Source: a virus
IMG/VR virus record: IMGVR_UViG_3300031576_000739
Location: 1 to 36,721 of that record
Direction: 5' to 3' (one strand)
DNA: 36,721 nt
Of the stretch, positions 14,480 through 36,609 are shown piece after piece. The notes below the pieces were generated by a model. That model ran no database searches, was not told the DNA's origin, and saw only the letters and a program-made list of their open reading frames with translations. The translations under genes were made by a program, and so were the position numbers. Position 1 is the stretch's first letter. Each line of letters opens with the position of its first letter.

Positions 14480-14509
14480 TTGACAAAATAAGGGGGTATT
14501 ATTTATTAT
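14480..14509 (+). promoter_or_regulatory. Promoter with AGGGGGTAT motif, copy 1
   Basis: TTGACA (14480-14485), an 18-nt spacer and TATTAT (14504-14509). A perfect TATAAT at 14507 would give a 21-nt spacer. Transcription would start at about 14516, essentially at the ATG of the next gene, giving a leaderless message. The spacer contains AGGGGGTAT, which also occurs in the promoter at 14659. Confidence 0.7.
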
Positions 14510-14516
14510 AATAAAT

Positions 14517-14675
14517 ATGGCTACTAAACTTGAAAAAACTTTTGCCTTAGAGGAATTCAAGGAATGGGGCAGAAAAGGCGGATTAAAGACTGCCGAATTA
14601 TATCCTTTGGAAATTCGCAGAAAATACTGGAAAAGAGTAGGTAGACCCAAAAAGAGACTTGACAAAAAGAAATAG
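14517..14675 (+). CDS. Small basic KGG/AT-hook-like protein
   Basis: 52 residues, strongly basic. EWGRKGG (residues 16-22) resembles the KGG repeat of small stress-type proteins, and VGRPKKR (41-47) matches the core of an AT-hook that inserts in the minor groove of A/T DNA. The C-terminus is DKKK. It sits between two promoters sharing AGGGGGTAT, and its stop codon overlaps the second copy. It could bind these sites and control both, but that is inferred from position. No ribosome site exists, in line with a leaderless transcript. Confidence 0.6.
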   Translation: MATKLEKTFALEEFKEWGRKGGLKTAELYPLEIRRKYWKRVGRPKKRLDKKK

Positions 14676-14687
14676 GGGGTATATACT
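14659..14687 (+). promoter_or_regulatory. Promoter with AGGGGGTAT motif, copy 2
   Basis: TTGACA (14659-14664), exactly 17 nt, TATACT (14682-14687). The -35 lies within the 3' end of the basic small gene. AGGGGGTAT occupies 14674-14682, directly before the -10. This should drive the run of small genes and the SSB-like gene that follow. Confidence 0.75.
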
Positions 14688-16120: not shown

Positions 16121-16308
16121 TTGGAATAATTGGAAATATAAACACCTTATATTGGTCTAGGTCTTGGTCTGGGTCTAGGTCTTGGTCTGGGTCTTGGTCT
16201 AGGTCTTGGTCTGGGTCTTGGTCTAGGTCTGGGTCTTGGTCTAGGTCTAGGTCTGGGTCTAGGTCTAGGTCTGGGTCTAGGTCTTGGTCTGGGTCTAGGT
16301 CTAAATAA
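16117..16308 (+). CDS. Ser-Arg/Ser-Trp/Ser-Gly repeat protein
   Basis: 63 residues starting at an ATG that shares ATGA with the previous stop. After a hydrophobic start (MIGIIGNINTLYW) the whole remainder is dipeptides of Ser followed by Arg, Trp or Gly, from 25 copies of the hexamer GGTCTN. The product would be disordered, basic and Trp-rich, possibly able to bind nucleic acid or form condensates. Indels of whole hexamers keep the frame. Translational coupling favours expression, but the ORF could exist simply because the repeat has no stop codons. Confidence 0.4.
   Translation: MIGIIGNINTLYWSRSWSGSRSWSGSWSRSWSGSWSRSGSWSRSRSGSRSRSGSRSWSGSRSK
16154..16303. repeat. 25 tandem copies of hexamer GGTCTN (N = A, T or G)
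   Basis: 150 bp of perfect 6-bp units in which five positions are invariant and the sixth is A, T or G but never C. The order is irregular, with ATG and AAG triplets recurring (A,T,G,A,T,G,T,A at the start; A,A,G,A,A,G near the end). The pattern suggests replication slippage plus drift confined to one codon position. Both strands are open through it: Ser-X on the + strand and Asp-X on the - strand. Confidence 0.95.
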
Positions 16309-17107: not shown

Positions 17108-17122
17108 CTCTGCGAACCCTCT

Positions 17123-17174
17123 CCTCTCCCAGTCGGAGAATCAACCATTACTTCAGTCTCGAAGATGGGAGAGG
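17123..17174. repeat. 9-bp inverted repeat before promoters
   Basis: CCTCTCCCA (17123-17131) and TGGGAGAGG (17166-17174) form a perfect inverted repeat with a 34-nt interior. It lies 28 nt upstream of the first -35. It could be a cruciform, a looped RNA at the end of the preceding message, or a protein-binding dyad. Confidence 0.5.
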
Positions 17175-17201
17175 ACGGGTTGGCGGATGTGGACAAGCTC
17201 C

Positions 17202-17229
17202 TTGACAAATAAATAGAATGGATTATGAT
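17202..17229 (+). promoter_or_regulatory. Strong sigma70-type promoter (first of two)
   Basis: Perfect TTGACA (17202-17207), a 16-nt spacer and TATGAT (17224-17229). It is followed 19 nt later by the -35 of a second promoter. Confidence 0.7.
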
Positions 17230-17248
17230 GTATCTAGTAAGTTGAAAT

Positions 17249-17277
17249 TTGACATTTTACTGGATTCCGCTTATTAT
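17249..17277 (+). promoter_or_regulatory. Strong sigma70-type promoter (second of two)
   Basis: Perfect TTGACA (17249-17254), an exact 17-nt spacer and TATTAT (17272-17277). The spacer contains CTGGATTCCGC (17260-17270), whose exact complement recurs at 17307-17317 inside the downstream hairpin. This gives an operator-like dyad that straddles the start site (about 17284). Confidence 0.8.
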
Positions 17278-17283
17278 CTATAG

Positions 17284-17340
17284 AGTCCCTAGATGGGGAT
17301 TCTCTGGCGGAATCCAGAGTCTCCATCTAGGGATTTTAAT
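17284..17340 (+). promoter_or_regulatory. 5'-terminal hairpin with alternative pairings (attenuator-like)
   Basis: CCCTAGATGG+GGA (17287-17299) pairs with TCTCCATCTAGGG (17320-17332), with one G-U. CTCTGG (17302-17307) pairs with CCAGAG (17314-17319) inside it, giving a nearly continuous stem with loop CGGAAT, followed by ATTTTAATTT. Competing pairings exist. The loop and 3' arm of the inner stem are complementary to 17260-17270, GGATTC/GAATCC can form within 17297-17315, and TAGATGGG (17290-17297) also matches CCCATCTA at 17399-17406. A transcript from 17284 would begin with this structure. Confidence 0.6.
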
Positions 17341-17486
17341 TTACTCGTGAGTTTTAGTGGTCATACGATAGTTTGATCCTACCCCGGGGAACGGACTACC
17401 CATCTACTAGCAAAGGCTAGAGCTTAACAACGCCGTCGCTCACAAACTTCTTTTTCTCTTTTTTCTTATAGTGAGCGGGGGATATT
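17341..17486 (+). other. Non-coding control region with further hairpins
   Basis: No credible ORF. Visible structures are an 8-bp CCCCGGGG palindrome (17382-17389), a CCCATCTA segment (17399-17406) able to pair with the upstream hairpin arm, a small hairpin CTAGC/GCTAG (17407-17420), and CGCTCAC/GTGAGCG (17437-17443 with 17471-17477) enclosing a 27-nt pyrimidine-rich loop. With the promoters before it and the repressor-like gene after it, this is a long structured 5' leader or a small RNA. No tRNA fold was found. Confidence 0.55.
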
Positions 17487-17519
17487 GCACCACAATAGCA
17501 CTACCATGGCACTACAATG
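17487..17519. repeat. Three 11-bp tandem repeats overlapping start of RHH gene
   Basis: GCACCACAATA (17487-17497), GCACTACCATG (17498-17508) and GCACTACAATG (17509-17519) are consecutive 11-mers. The third includes the ATG of the ribbon-helix-helix gene. A repeat of about one helical turn is typical of operators bound cooperatively by RHH dimers on one DNA face, so autoregulation is likely. The regulation is inferred. Confidence 0.65.
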
Positions 17520-17687
17520 CGAAATAAACATTACAAAGGTAGAAATTTTAGATTATCAGACGAGATTTATGAATCCTTGCAGGAATTAAAAAATACTTTA
17601 GAAATAAGTTGGAATTTGCTTTTTAAGAATTTATTAAATGACTCTAAACGAACTCAAAAATCTAGAAGGCACAAAAGCCGAACGTAA
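17517..17687 (+). CDS. Ribbon-helix-helix (CopG/Arc-like) regulator
   Basis: 56 residues from ATG 17517. An N-terminal basic part and a strand (NFRLSDEIYESL) lead to two helices (DEIYESLQELKNTL and SWNLLFKNLLND), the pattern of the RHH fold in which a dimer's paired strands read the major groove. The C-terminus is basic (RTQKSRRHKSR). Three 11-bp repeats overlap its start codon, suggesting that it represses its own promoter. It overlaps the next gene by 50 nt. No ribosome site is apparent. Confidence 0.6.
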   Translation: MRNKHYKGRNFRLSDEIYESLQELKNTLEISWNLLFKNLLNDSKRTQKSRRHKSRT

Positions 17688-17871
17688 AAAACTTTGGCAA
17701 CTTTGTGAAGAAAAGAAACTGAAATACGTAGACGCAGTAATGATTTTAAGATATTGGTCGAAACGAAAAAACAAAGATACTTTAATTGACGAAATCGGAA
17801 AAGCCCAATTTACAGAAATATTCGGCAATACGCCCGAAGTGGTAAAGCAAAGTGAAGAATTATTTGGATGA
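17638..17871 (+). CDS. Hypothetical helical protein
   Basis: 77 residues, mostly helical and charged (NLEGTKAERKKLWQLCEEKKLKYVDAVMILRYW, then SKRKNKDTLIDEIG). It overlaps the RHH gene's 3' end and joins the methyltransferase gene by ATGA, so it is co-translated with the modification genes. There is no recognised domain. A partner or specificity accessory is possible. Confidence 0.5.
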   Translation: MTLNELKNLEGTKAERKKLWQLCEEKKLKYVDAVMILRYWSKRKNKDTLIDEIGKAQFTEIFGNTPEVVKQSEELFG

Positions 17872-19016
17872 AAATTAACGAAATAATAATGGGAGATACT
17901 TTGTCAGTTTTGAAAACTTGGCCTGATAATGTGATAGATTGCATCATCACATCGCCGCCGTATTGGTCCTTGAGATCATATCTTCCCAAAGACCATCCCG
18001 ATAAGCCGAAAGAGATTGGGCTTGAACCGACATTCAAAGAATACTTGAATAAATTATTTGCGATTTTTGAGGAGACAAAACGGGTTTTGAAACCGACTGG
18101 CAGTTTATGGGTAAATATGGGGGATAGTTATGGTACTCACGCATCTGCTGGTGGTAAAGGACAGTTTGGTTTGAATATGATGGATGATAGCAGGAGTGCT
18201 AGGAGTTGGAAAAAACCAAACTTGGGCTATGAAAAATCCCTCATTGGTCAGCCATGGCGATTGGCCCTGAAACTGATTGACGATGGTAAGTGGATTTTAA
18301 GAGCGGATATAATTTGGGCGAAGCAAATTTACTTCGGCAAAGAACGAAAAACGAAAGGATCGGCAATGCCATCAAGCGTGAAAGATCGGGTGAATATGAC
18401 CCACGAGCATTTGTTTCATTTCACGAAAAGCAAGAAGTATTTTTACGATTTAGACGCGGTGAGGATAAAACAGCAAACTTTTGAGGATAGACCAGATGGT
18501 TTTACTCGCAGTAGAGAGTTCAAATATAATAGCAAATTTTTAGAGGATTATTCGCCACAGACCAAACAATCGGGTCACAGGTTCAACTATCGCGTCCAAT
18601 CAGTAGCGGCCGGAAAAATCAAAGGGCCGCAGTTTAAGGCGAGCGAGGAGGAGATAAGGAATTATCGTGATGAAAGAGCAAAAAAAGCAACAGAGGAAAA
18701 AATGATAACTTTTTATAGCCATTCTAATCGTGGTGAAGAATATAACAATCCCAATGGCAAAAACATTCCTTCGGTCTGGCTCATCGGAACTGAACCTTCC
18801 AAAGAACTGCATTTCGCTAAATTCCCGGAAGGGTTAGTGGAAATTCCGATAAAATCTACTTGTCCGAAAGATGGGATAGTGTGTGATATTTTTATGGGTT
18901 CAGGGACCGTGGCTAAAGTTGCTAGATATTTAGGAAGAAATTTTGTAGGAATTGAATTGAATGGAGAATATATTAAATTGGCAGAGAAAAGATTAGCACA
19001 GCAAGTTCTGGGATGA
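17868..19016 (+). CDS. DNA methyltransferase, beta class (amino-methylating)
   Basis: 382 residues. Catalytic motif IV TSPPYW (residues 28-33) is near the N-terminus and SAM-binding motif I FMGSG (about 342-346) near the C-terminus, followed by GRNFVGIELNGEY. This circular order defines beta-class enzymes that methylate the exocyclic amine of cytosine (N4) or adenine (N6); TSPPYW with Trp favours N4-cytosine. The middle region (roughly 180-300) should hold target recognition. It acts on phage DNA, probably to avoid host restriction. It starts on ATGA of the previous gene and itself overlaps an HNH gene by ATGA. Confidence 0.88.
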   Translation: MKINEIIMGDTLSVLKTWPDNVIDCIITSPPYWSLRSYLPKDHPDKPKEIGLEPTFKEYLNKLFAIFEETKRVLKPTGSLWVNMGDSYGTHASAGGKGQFGLNMMDDSRSARSWKKPNLGYEKSLIGQPWRLALKLIDDGKWILRADIIWAKQIYFGKERKTKGSAMPSSVKDRVNMTHEHLFHFTKSKKYFYDLDAVRIKQQTFEDRPDGFTRSREFKYNSKFLEDYSPQTKQSGHRFNYRVQSVAAGKIKGPQFKASEEEIRNYRDERAKKATEEKMITFYSHSNRGEEYNNPNGKNIPSVWLIGTEPSKELHFAKFPEGLVEIPIKSTCPKDGIVCDIFMGSGTVAKVARYLGRNFVGIELNGEYIKLAEKRLAQQVLG

Positions 19017-21582: not shown

Positions 21583-22067
21583 GACAAAAAAAGGCTCTAG
21601 AAAAATTGGCTGAAAATGGCGGAAGATCAGTAAGTCGAGCTATGGTTGAAGCAGGGTATAGTCCGATGACTGCTAAACGGCCTGATAAATTAACTAAAAG
21701 TAAAGGATTTCAAGAACTGGCAAGAGAATATTTACCAGACAATCTGCTTTTAGAAAAACATGTTGAAGGCTTAGAAGCCACTAAAATTATTATTTCTCAT
21801 ACTGAACCTGACAAAGAAGTTCCTGATTTTTTGATAAGACATAAATATCTTGAAACAGGATACAAAATCCGTCAGAAATTAGTGGACAGTGATGTTAAAG
21901 ACGAAAAAATTATCGTTAATTTGATTCAATTTAATGCCCCAGATAACACTGCCCCACAACATAGATTTCAGGCGAAGACCGTATCAGTGGCAAGTGATGG
22001 CTCATCCGGCAAAGTACAAGTCGTTGATTTTGCACCGGAAAGCGGGGAAAACAGCCCTCGCGCTTAA
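21570..22067 (+). CDS. terS: Terminase small subunit
   Basis: 165 residues. The N-terminal helix-turn-helix is typical of TerS: LRQKKALEKLAENGGRSVSR, then AMVEAGYSPMTAKRPDKL, KSKGFQEL and EYLPDNLLLEKHVEGL. TerS rings recognise the packaging site and load the large subunit. The final 45 residues are encoded in DNA that also encodes the start of TerL, including its Walker A motif. This tail is Ala/Ser/Gln-rich and probably flexible. No clear ribosome site precedes the ATG. Confidence 0.85.
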   Translation: MATLRQKKALEKLAENGGRSVSRAMVEAGYSPMTAKRPDKLTKSKGFQELAREYLPDNLLLEKHVEGLEATKIIISHTEPDKEVPDFLIRHKYLETGYKIRQKLVDSDVKDEKIIVNLIQFNAPDNTAPQHRFQAKTVSVASDGSSGKVQVVDFAPESGENSPRA

Positions 22068-23250
22068 TAAACTCATTTACGAGGCTTTCAAAAATCCAAA
22101 GAAAGTTTTTTGGTATGTTGCGCCAACTTATAGACAAGCTAAAGAGATTATTTGGCGTGATCCAGAAATGTTGCAAAAGTATTTACCGATGGAAATTGTT
22201 GATAAGAAAAACGATACGGAATTGGTGATTTATCTTAAAAATGGATCAGTCATTGGCGTCAAAGGGGCAGATGAGCCTGATAGTTTAAGAGGGCCGAATC
22301 CTTTAGGCGTAGTTTTAGATGAATTTGCTTTGATGAAAAAAGTAATATGGGAAGAGATTATTTCGCCGATCATGTTTGCTAACCCAGATGCTTGGTGCTG
22401 GTTTATAGGAACACCTAAACCAATAGGCATGCATTTTCAGCAATTACATGAACGAGCTAAAACTCTTGAGAATTGGCTTGCTTTGATGCAAACTGCTGAA
22501 CAGACCAAAATCATTCCAGAGTCTCAATTGGCGGAGGCTAAAAAAACAATGACCGAGATGGCTTATCGTCAAGAATTTTTATGCGAATGGTTCACTGAAG
22601 GCGGCGTAGTGTTTCGAGGGATTGAACGATGTTTGGAAAATAAAGTTTATGAACCAGACTTGCCTGATCCACGATTTACTTATCAGTTTGGCATTGATTT
22701 GGCGCAATTGGTTGATTGGACAGTTAAAATTGGGATTAACATTCAACGACAACGAATCGGGTATTTTGAGAGATATAATCAGCTCGATTATCGTACCCAG
22801 CGAGCAAGAATTGAAGCGGTGTTGCGGCGTTATGGTAATGCTTTGGCGAATGTAGATCAAACTGGAATTGGGGAGGTAATTACTCAAGATTTGCTGGATG
22901 CCAATCTTAATATCAATGGCATTAAATTCACCGAAGCTATAAAGCGAGACTTGATCAATAATCTTGCCATAATGATGGAACAAGGACAAATTAAATTTCC
23001 TAATATTCCCGAACTTATTGAAGAATTGCGGATTTTTGGATTTGAAATTATGCCTTCTGGACGGATTCGCTATGGAGCGCCGGAAGGCTATCACGATGAT
23101 TGTGTGATTGCTTTGGCTTTGGCGGTTTGGAATTTACCAGGAAGATTACCAACTTTTACCCAGTTATCGGCAATTGCTAAAGAGACAAACCGAATTTTAG
23201 AATCTGGAGAATATAAAGGACAGAATGTAATGGGTGGAGATCAAGAATAA
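21934..23250 (+). CDS. terL: Terminase large subunit
   Basis: 438 residues with both enzyme halves. ATPase: Walker A HRKAGKT (residues 34-40), Walker B LGVVLDE (124-130) and the coupling motif IGTPKP (158-163). RNase-H-like nuclease: Asp255 in FGIDLAQ, Asp308 in VDQTGIG, and Asp388/389 in YHDDCVIALA. It pumps DNA into the prohead and cuts it. The start lies 134 nt inside terS in another frame, and the Walker A itself is in the overlap. No alternative start downstream would keep the Walker A, so the overlap is real. It ends in TAATG shared with the next gene. Confidence 0.93.
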   Translation: MPQITLPHNIDFRRRPYQWQVMAHPAKYKSLILHRKAGKTALALNKLIYEAFKNPKKVFWYVAPTYRQAKEIIWRDPEMLQKYLPMEIVDKKNDTELVIYLKNGSVIGVKGADEPDSLRGPNPLGVVLDEFALMKKVIWEEIISPIMFANPDAWCWFIGTPKPIGMHFQQLHERAKTLENWLALMQTAEQTKIIPESQLAEAKKTMTEMAYRQEFLCEWFTEGGVVFRGIERCLENKVYEPDLPDPRFTYQFGIDLAQLVDWTVKIGINIQRQRIGYFERYNQLDYRTQRARIEAVLRRYGNALANVDQTGIGEVITQDLLDANLNINGIKFTEAIKRDLINNLAIMMEQGQIKFPNIPELIEELRIFGFEIMPSGRIRYGAPEGYHDDCVIALALAVWNLPGRLPTFTQLSAIAKETNRILESGEYKGQNVMGGDQE

Positions 23251-23459: not shown

Positions 23460-23529
23460 AACTGAATATTGCCTACGGAAAGACCGAGGAACGTTTCGCA
23501 AGAACTGCGAAAGTCCTCGGATTTTTGTT
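23460..23529 (+). promoter_or_regulatory. Conserved 5' leader element, copy 2
   Basis: Matches copy 1 (695-767) in its first 26 bases at 19 positions, including GGAAAGACC (23477-23485), then has a hairpin of the same plan but different sequence, then a U-run, then the ATG at 23530. The same element thus precedes both structural modules. No ribosome site separates hairpin and start codon. Confidence 0.6.
23484..23526 (+). terminator. Terminator-type hairpin before capsid module
   Basis: CCGAGGA (23484-23490) pairs with TCCTCGG (23514-23520) and TTTCGCA (23494-23500) with TGCGAAA (23506-23512) around AGAAC. ATTTTTG follows. It has the form of a strong intrinsic terminator, placed before rather than after the genes of the capsid module. 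Confidence 0.75.
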
Positions 23530-23796
23530 ATGGAGATAAAGCTTTCAGAGAAAGAAATAGAGGGATTGCGCCGCCTAGCTCGCGGTTATCACGGCAAAAC
23601 TCTCATAGATTATCTAAACCGATTAGTCAATGAGCTTAAAGATTTGACTACTTTGAAAGAAACTGAAGCGGAAAAACTTTTCATTGCCCATAAAGGTCGA
23701 GAAGAGGCTATAAAGCTGATTCAGGATAATTTAATAGATTTTTTAATTAAACTTAAACCTGAAATCGAAGAGCAAAATTTTGGAGAGTACGAATAA
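23530..23796 (+). CDS. Small helical protein at head of capsid module
   Basis: 88 residues, helical and highly charged (LSEKEIEGLRRLARGYHGKTLIDYLNRLVNELKDL). Proteins with this KLSEKEIEALRRLA...GKTLIDYL pattern are common and unassigned in the structural modules of environmental phages. Its ATG follows the leader hairpin directly. It abuts the next gene with no gap. Confidence 0.6.
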   Translation: MEIKLSEKEIEGLRRLARGYHGKTLIDYLNRLVNELKDLTTLKETEAEKLFIAHKGREEAIKLIQDNLIDFLIKLKPEIEEQNFGEYE

Positions 23797-35465: not shown

Positions 35466-36609
35466 GCGATTAGAATCAATTTGGAATCTGGGTAACTTTT
35501 ATATCTCGACTTTTGTTAAAAAGCCTGGACAAAATATTGGTCGCACGCCACTTGAACTTGTTAAATGCCAAAATTGCACTTTGATGCAATTAAGACATAC
35601 TGCTCCGCAGGAACTTTTGTATAAGCGGATTTATTGGTATAAGTCGGGAAATAACCCAATTATCGTTAGAACTTTGAAAGAGATTGCAACGGAAGCCATA
35701 AAAATTGCTAAACCCAAAGATGGTGATGTTTTTTTGGACATCGGCGCAAATGATGGAACGCTTTTGAAATTTGTGCCTAAAGATTACTTTCGAATTGCTT
35801 GTGAACCTGCGAAAAACTTTCATAAAGAATTGGAAGACTTGAATCTTGATTTTTACATTTTTGATTTTTGGAAAGCGACATATCTCAAAAATGTGTCTAA
35901 AGCCAAGATTATCACAGCAATTGGTATGTTTTATGATATGGATGATCCACTTAAATTTCTGAAAGATTGCGTTGCGGTATTGGATAAGGATGGAATTTTT
36001 GTAACCCAAATGGAAATGATGGAAACGATGGTAAAAAATAATGAATTCAGCAATATTTGCCATGAACATTTAGAATACTATTCTTTGCAGTCCTTAAAAT
36101 ACTTGTTTGAAAAATCGGGTTTGGAGATTTTCAAAGTCGAAGTCAAAAAAAATTCAATTGATGGAGAGAGCTACCGGTTTTATGCTAGACATTATCAAAA
36201 AGGAAGTATTATTTTGCCTTATCGAAAAATGGATTTGGAAAATTTCAAAAGAAAGGTTGAATTGAACAGAAAACAGACTGTAAATTTTATTCTTACAGAA
36301 AGAGCGAGAAATAAAAAAATTTATAGTTATGCTGCCTCGACTAGGGGAAATACGATTTTGCAATATTATCAATTGAATTATCCTTATCTTTCTGGAGCGG
36401 CAGATATTAACTCTCGAAAATGGGGAAAATATACTGTAGGGACATGGATACCGATTATGTCTGAAAAAAAGGCCAGAGAAAAGGCTGATTACTTTTTGGT
36501 ATTGCCTTGGGGATATATCAAGGCTTTCATTAAAAAAGAAAAAGGCTGGCTCAAAAAGGGAGGTAAGTTTATAATTTGTATTCCTCAATTTAAGGTGATT
36601 GGCAAATAA
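35419..36609 (+). CDS. Sugar C-methyltransferase (NDP-hexose 3-C-methyltransferase type)
   Basis: 396 residues with the full three-part layout. Zinc-binding N-terminus (CRVCRSKRL and CQNCTLMQL). SAM domain (FLDIGANDGTLLKF). The family hallmark HEHLEYYSL, then GESYRFYARH. C-terminal Methyltransf_14 domain with YAASTRGNTILQYYQL (family GASTKGNTLLQY). Such enzymes add a methyl branch to C3 of a keto-deoxysugar nucleotide, or act on related substrates. With the DegT aminotransferase at the left end of the window it suggests a branched amino sugar. The overlap with the previous gene is 47 nt. Confidence 0.88.
   Translation: MRSYRTINKCRVCRSKRLESIWNLGNFYISTFVKKPGQNIGRTPLELVKCQNCTLMQLRHTAPQELLYKRIYWYKSGNNPIIVRTLKEIATEAIKIAKPKDGDVFLDIGANDGTLLKFVPKDYFRIACEPAKNFHKELEDLNLDFYIFDFWKATYLKNVSKAKIITAIGMFYDMDDPLKFLKDCVAVLDKDGIFVTQMEMMETMVKNNEFSNICHEHLEYYSLQSLKYLFEKSGLEIFKVEVKKNSIDGESYRFYARHYQKGSIILPYRKMDLENFKRKVELNRKQTVNFILTERARNKKIYSYAASTRGNTILQYYQLNYPYLSGAADINSRKWGKYTVGTWIPIMSEKKAREKADYFLVLPWGYIKAFIKKEKGWLKKGGKFIICIPQFKVIGK

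Follow-up and report, generated by a model that had tools for sequence, protein, structure and literature searches.

The c4 immunity RNA of phage P1 follows an antisense logic like that of the CI RNA of phage P4. In phage HK022, the put RNA suppresses termination through RNA polymerase and, to our knowledge, no loop-to-leader complementarity is known for it. Phage P4 prevents its replication genes from being expressed by terminating transcription prematurely, for which the CI RNA pairs with two targets, seqA on its upstream side and seqC on its downstream side (PMC4825925). For IsrK of Salmonella Gifsy-1, a short terminated RNA and a read-through mRNA arise from a single promoter region, with the shorter RNA acting in trans on the longer (PMC4825925).

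Here we describe a leader in a 36,721-base virus record, the whole of which is called the window below and whose annotated genes all lie on the + strand. We regard as evenly balanced the proposal that this segment is a regulatory leader in which RNA pairing controls read-through into the downstream operon, with a hairpin RNA acting in trans as in P4 CI and P1 c4.

Comparison with described systems

The window shares with P4 CI and with the c4 RNAs of P1 and P7 a same-strand antisense logic placed between promoter and operon, as well as a stable hairpin RNA that is complementary to an upstream leader segment and is proposed to cause early termination. An upstream target comparable to seqA is present as the segment pair b:b' described below; the same complementarity metric applied to P4 itself, 250 nt upstream, is not significant (147/200). 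The window hairpin differs from P4 CI and c4 in being itself T-tailed and in having a promoter-like site, P2, whose predicted start lies at its foot. P4 CI further differs by seqC, since a seqC-like second target downstream of the window hairpin does not rise above chance (245 of 300 shuffles are as good). Neither of the Rfam models C4 (RF01695) and isrK (RF01394) matches anywhere in the window, and 14 related loci likewise gave no match; the P4 control matches both. The operon controlled in P4 is the replication operon (PMC4825925), as in the replication-organizer leaders considered below; beside the window element no replication gene was identified. Because there is no Rfam match, no seqC and no replication gene identified beside the element, we do not claim membership in the P4 CI/C4 class.

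The likeness to HK022 put lies in a structured RNA immediately 3' of early phage promoters. The likeness to IsrK (PMC4825925) lies in a short terminated and a read-through RNA from one promoter region and in action in trans, all of which would apply to the window by analogy; IsrK differs in activating translation and has no sequence match in the window. Among the open-licence papers searched, no description of this hairpin-loop/leader layout was found.

Organization of the locus

The element sits in an intergenic stretch (17108-17516) flanked by ORFs of 96 aa and 56 aa (the second at 17517-17687). The latter heads an operon that continues on the + strand with a 77-aa ORF, a DNA methylase (17868-19016), an HNH-like ORF (19013), Dam (20821) and the terminase (21934-23250). 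None of the window ORFs scanned against Pfam is an integrase or a recognised repressor, the gene downstream of the element is not a replication organizer, and no tRNA or tmRNA was found. GC skew is uninformative for a replication origin because nearly all genes share one strand.

Two TTGACA promoter-like sites spaced 47 bp apart, reported in the first-pass annotation, are indeed present on the + strand, each with 11 of 12 matches: P1 (TTGACA-16-TATGAT, 17202-17229) and P2 (TTGACA-17-TATTAT, 17249-17277). With starts set seven bases past each -10, the P1 RNA is predicted to begin near 17236 and the P2 RNA near 17284, at the hairpin foot. Four + strand sites in the window combine a perfect TTGACA with at least 5/6 matches in the -10, against a mean of 0.40 in 300 whole-window shuffles, and none of these shuffles (0/300) contains such a pair less than 60 bp apart.

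The terminator-like hairpin at 17281-17339 (+ strand; about 24 bp, a UU bulge and the loop CGGAAU) is the most stable 60-nt fold of the window on either strand (-38.7 kcal/mol), and the segment 17230-17345 has a folding z of -6.94. All four non-Watson-Crick positions in its 23-nt arms are G-T on the + strand, which indicates selection on the + strand RNA. The hairpin is followed by ATTTTAATTT, as had been noted, and the T-rich tail ATTTTAATTTACT (17332-17345), here called a', can pair with leader segment a (17236-17249), carried only by the P1 RNA. The T-tail is weak, and this hairpin is absent from the calls of a terminator scan of the window. Hairpins are not generally enriched after promoters (78 sites, mean z -0.55).

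A second leader segment, b (CTGGATTCCGC, 17260-17271), lies within the P2 spacer, is likewise confined to the P1 RNA and is complementary to b' (17306-17317), which comprises the hairpin loop and the inner 3' arm. The first reading of the sequence had correctly identified 17260-17270 as the exact reverse complement of 17307-17317; an exact inverted repeat of at least 11 arises in 6/2000 shuffles of 17202-17340 and in 32/2000 of 17108-17516. The b:b' duplex is worth -20.9 kcal/mol, against -6.3 for b with the six loop bases alone, and because b' extends into the inner stem, full pairing breaks that stem. A proposed fourth arm at 17399-17406 proved to be at chance level (73/300 shuffles equal it, and forcing its pairing costs 14.7 kcal/mol). 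Structure 3' of the hairpin is not significant across 17339-17516 (z -1.60), and what remains of the leader before the next ORF (17346-17516, + strand) is only weakly structured. A separate and very stable + strand hairpin A (17109-17187, stem AACCC..TCCTCTCCCA / TGGGAGAGGA..GGGTT, z -3.37) lies 3' of the 96-aa ORF and 5' of P1 and has no T-run.

Competing folds of the two predicted leader RNAs

The multi-state folding anticipated in the first-pass annotation is evident in the predicted P1 RNA (17236-17345), where the hairpin fold (-43.6 kcal/mol) and the best hairpin-free fold (-42.0 kcal/mol) are separated by a gap of 1.6 kcal/mol. A gap this small was reached by none of 1500 shuffled leaders and none of 1460 native 46-mers, and control leaders have mean gaps of 13.7-15.9 kcal/mol. 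The hairpin-free fold nests a:a' (17236-17249/17332-17345) with b:b'. For the P2 RNA the gap is 17.6 kcal/mol and there is no comparable alternative fold; its predicted start lies at the hairpin foot, and it can form the hairpin only.

In P1 RNA truncated at 17318-17326, the b:b' helix predominates as an intermediate (P 0.998). Truncated RNAs of equal stability are obtained with 93 of 987 native 46-mers. The equilibrium probability of b:b' is 0.07 in 17236-17345, 0.03 in 17236-17516 and 0.000 with the RNA end at 17338, so that the hairpin dominates once its 3' arm is complete. It is strongly favoured where termination would probably occur, and a' is transcribed only once the likely point of release has been passed. 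Any switch must therefore be kinetic or factor-assisted.

We envisage that b in the P1 RNA would pair with b' over 12 bp as soon as the loop emerges, delaying or preventing the terminator-like hairpin, and that the 5' end of the same RNA could additionally pair with the T-rich tail. The P2 RNA would fold into the hairpin at once because a and b are absent from it. If terminated, it would be a small RNA of about 55 nt, a hairpin whose loop contains b'. Such an RNA could act in trans by binding b on newly made P1 transcripts, which would free b' and force the hairpin.

Recurrence of the layout in distant phages

Searches with single proteins (RHH-like, 96-aa, lysozyme-like and terminase) found no close relatives, and the intergenic segment has no DNA similarity in phage records, with a best E of about 0.1 in fetched loci. 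Distant phages were collected through terminase alignment. The nearest terminases among those found are 49% identical (L091/G001), and the closest relative, at this identity, has no DNA match to the window. Hairpin homology between the window and locus G010 (local score 26, second of 450) is not claimed, since an unrelated hairpin scores at least as well (27), and a pattern scan for the hairpin sequence returned G010 and one chance match only. The first-pass annotation had made its proposal depend on conservation of the dyad in relatives; the dyad is not conserved as sequence, and it is the layout that recurs.

Among promoter-proximal T-tailed hairpins, the loop is significantly complementary to the leader in 5/30: the window's own leader (WIN), L136, L131, L009 and L179, with L131 and L009 carrying identical sequence. 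The L179 and L136 hairpins lie directly 5' of a gene from one protein family, cultured homologues of which are annotated as replisome organizer or DnaD-like. A scan of this replication-organizer family gave 36 loci, or 31 after dropping five near-identical ones. A rule-based picker that took no account of complementarity identified T-tailed hairpins in 21 of the 31 leaders and none in the other 10. Loop-to-leader complementarity reaches p<=0.05 in 5/21 and p<=0.01 in 3/21 (combined p 4e-4), where L187 (seen beforehand) and L195 had helped to suggest the feature and the automatic L195 pick among the five is another hairpin than the ATG-proximal one; WIN and L131 had also shown the feature before the test. 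Control T-tailed hairpins elsewhere reach p<=0.05 in 94/1353 (6.9%). At a stem score of at least 27, 4/9 replication-organizer leaders are positive versus controls (Fisher 0.0024, rank test 2.6e-4). An earlier picker, which misassigned some hairpins, gave p<=0.05 in 5/30 replication-organizer leaders plus WIN and L131. For hairpins named by eye, 0 (L195), 10 (L221), 12 (L211) and 28 (L193) of 2000 shuffles are as good. Many replication-organizer leaders lack such a loop-complementary hairpin.

Loop-to-leader complementarity thus recurs at replication operons of distant phages, and this recurrence is the new element reported here. The recurrent layout consists of a leader segment b, a T-tailed hairpin with b' in its loop and then the replication-organizer gene, with sequences that differ among phages. 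In the alignable leaders of L205 and L215, both of which contain ATGCCTAAAA, b and b' differ together. The b:b' helix is the intermediate at P of at least 0.94 in 11 of 12 hand-listed leaders, and the gap of the G010/L179 leader is not reduced relative to shuffles (683/1500). Five leaders have a start codon at most 12 nt upstream of b, an ATG in L191, L205, L215 and L219 and a GTG in L208. The frames extend to or past the hairpin end in four of these five, that of L219 stopping 8 nt short. An RNA bound at b would block these leader ORFs too, if they are translated. The window leader has only TTG starts and these are without a clear Shine-Dalgarno match. As a separate observation, the leader frame that opens at the L208 GTG is in phase with the replication-organizer gene, whose ATG lies further downstream, and continues across the hairpin into it.

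The best cultured homologue of the replication-organizer protein belongs to Tenacibaculum phage JQ. Here AGCATCCTACTT lies 5' of a small ORF preceding the gene, and AGGTAGGATGCT follows about 56 bases further, inside the loop of a T-tailed hairpin whose start is near position 36004 of the JQ record. The resulting 12-bp b:b' helix is matched by 0/2000 shuffles, for a hairpin named by eye, and the JQ leader fold retains b:b' even with the hairpin complete. JQ is the one positive among 11 cultured regions examined, from 22 matching records. The picker, run on seven gaps of five cultured phages, found a T-tailed hairpin in four gaps, none at p<=0.05, and missed the JQ hairpin.

Alternative explanations and wider reading

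The recurrent layout could also be read as a structure acting only in cis, in which b and the loop of the finished hairpin form a long-range pseudoknot, or in which the RNA acts on RNA polymerase in the manner of HK022 put, with no trans RNA involved. By inspection, b' lies wholly within the loop in most of the listed leaders, so that b:b' and the stem can coexist there, and several of the elements are directly 3' of promoter-like sites. The window itself fits this reading poorly, given that its b' cannot pair fully with b while the inner stem is intact and that P2 provides a start without b; we consider a purely cis role unlikely. We give somewhat less credence to a plain 5' stabilising hairpin or ordinary terminator with a chance b:b' match. 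The same phage does have other T-tailed hairpins just 5' of genes (764, 23524), and inverted repeats of at least 11 do arise in shuffles of the whole intergenic segment (32/2000), but the fold-gap statistics and the recurrence of the layout argue against it.

A role in DNA was also weighed, namely that CTGGATTCCGC and its inverted copy serve as binding sites for a repressor and overlap both P2 and the transcription start. The copies lie 47 bp apart, one of them between the -35 and -10 of P2, as would suit an operator. This would leave the G-T-only mismatches, the fold competition and the same layout with other sequences elsewhere unexplained, and we judge it improbable. For operator control the first-pass annotation had pointed to the neighbouring RHH gene; the 56-aa ORF is only weakly RHH-like, with matches to RHH_1 (E 0.12) and VAPB_antitox (0.048) that both fall below Pfam cut-offs, so that operator control by this protein is not supported. 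Its idea of an attenuator or structured small RNA pointed in the right direction, given the competing-fold statistics and the same layout in distant phages. Its further suggestion, that this is the phage genetic switch, is unproven at a locus followed by methylase, HNH-like, Dam and terminase genes and in a window with no integrase or recognised repressor among its Pfam-scanned ORFs.

It is conceivable, though doubtful, that many phages share an RNA-only system of immunity and attenuation without sequence relationship to P4 CI or c4. The loop and target of each phage would then diverge together and define its immunity group. The window phage would add a second promoter from which only the hairpin RNA is made, and the choice of start site would set the switch. 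If the proposed control by RNA pairing is right, phages of uncultured hosts use it in place of a repressor protein to regulate early genes and perhaps superinfection. Specificity would be readable from sequence by comparing loop and leader, and RNA-based phage immunity would be findable by layout and not by sequence family, with the cultured phage JQ making the idea testable.

Other features of the window and its relatives

A second pair of strong promoter-like sites (14480-14509 and 14659-14687) flanks a 52-aa basic ORF in the window; in both sites AATA(A)GGGGGTAT precedes the -10 or falls within it. T-tailed hairpins at 710-768 and 23467-23539 start with a purine-rich GAAAGACC motif and end directly at an ATG. 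In G001, the closest relative, a T-tailed hairpin with a GGGGAGACC motif lies directly 3' of a TTGACA-17-TATACT site and just upstream of the homologue of window gene 738. A terminase segment of L089 (10001-10730), on a contig titled Candidatus Bathyarchaeota archaeon, is 51% identical to that of the window. Just 5' of the lysozyme-like ORF, positions 16154-16303 of the window hold about 25 tandem GGTCTN hexamers, in which N is A, T or G and never C.
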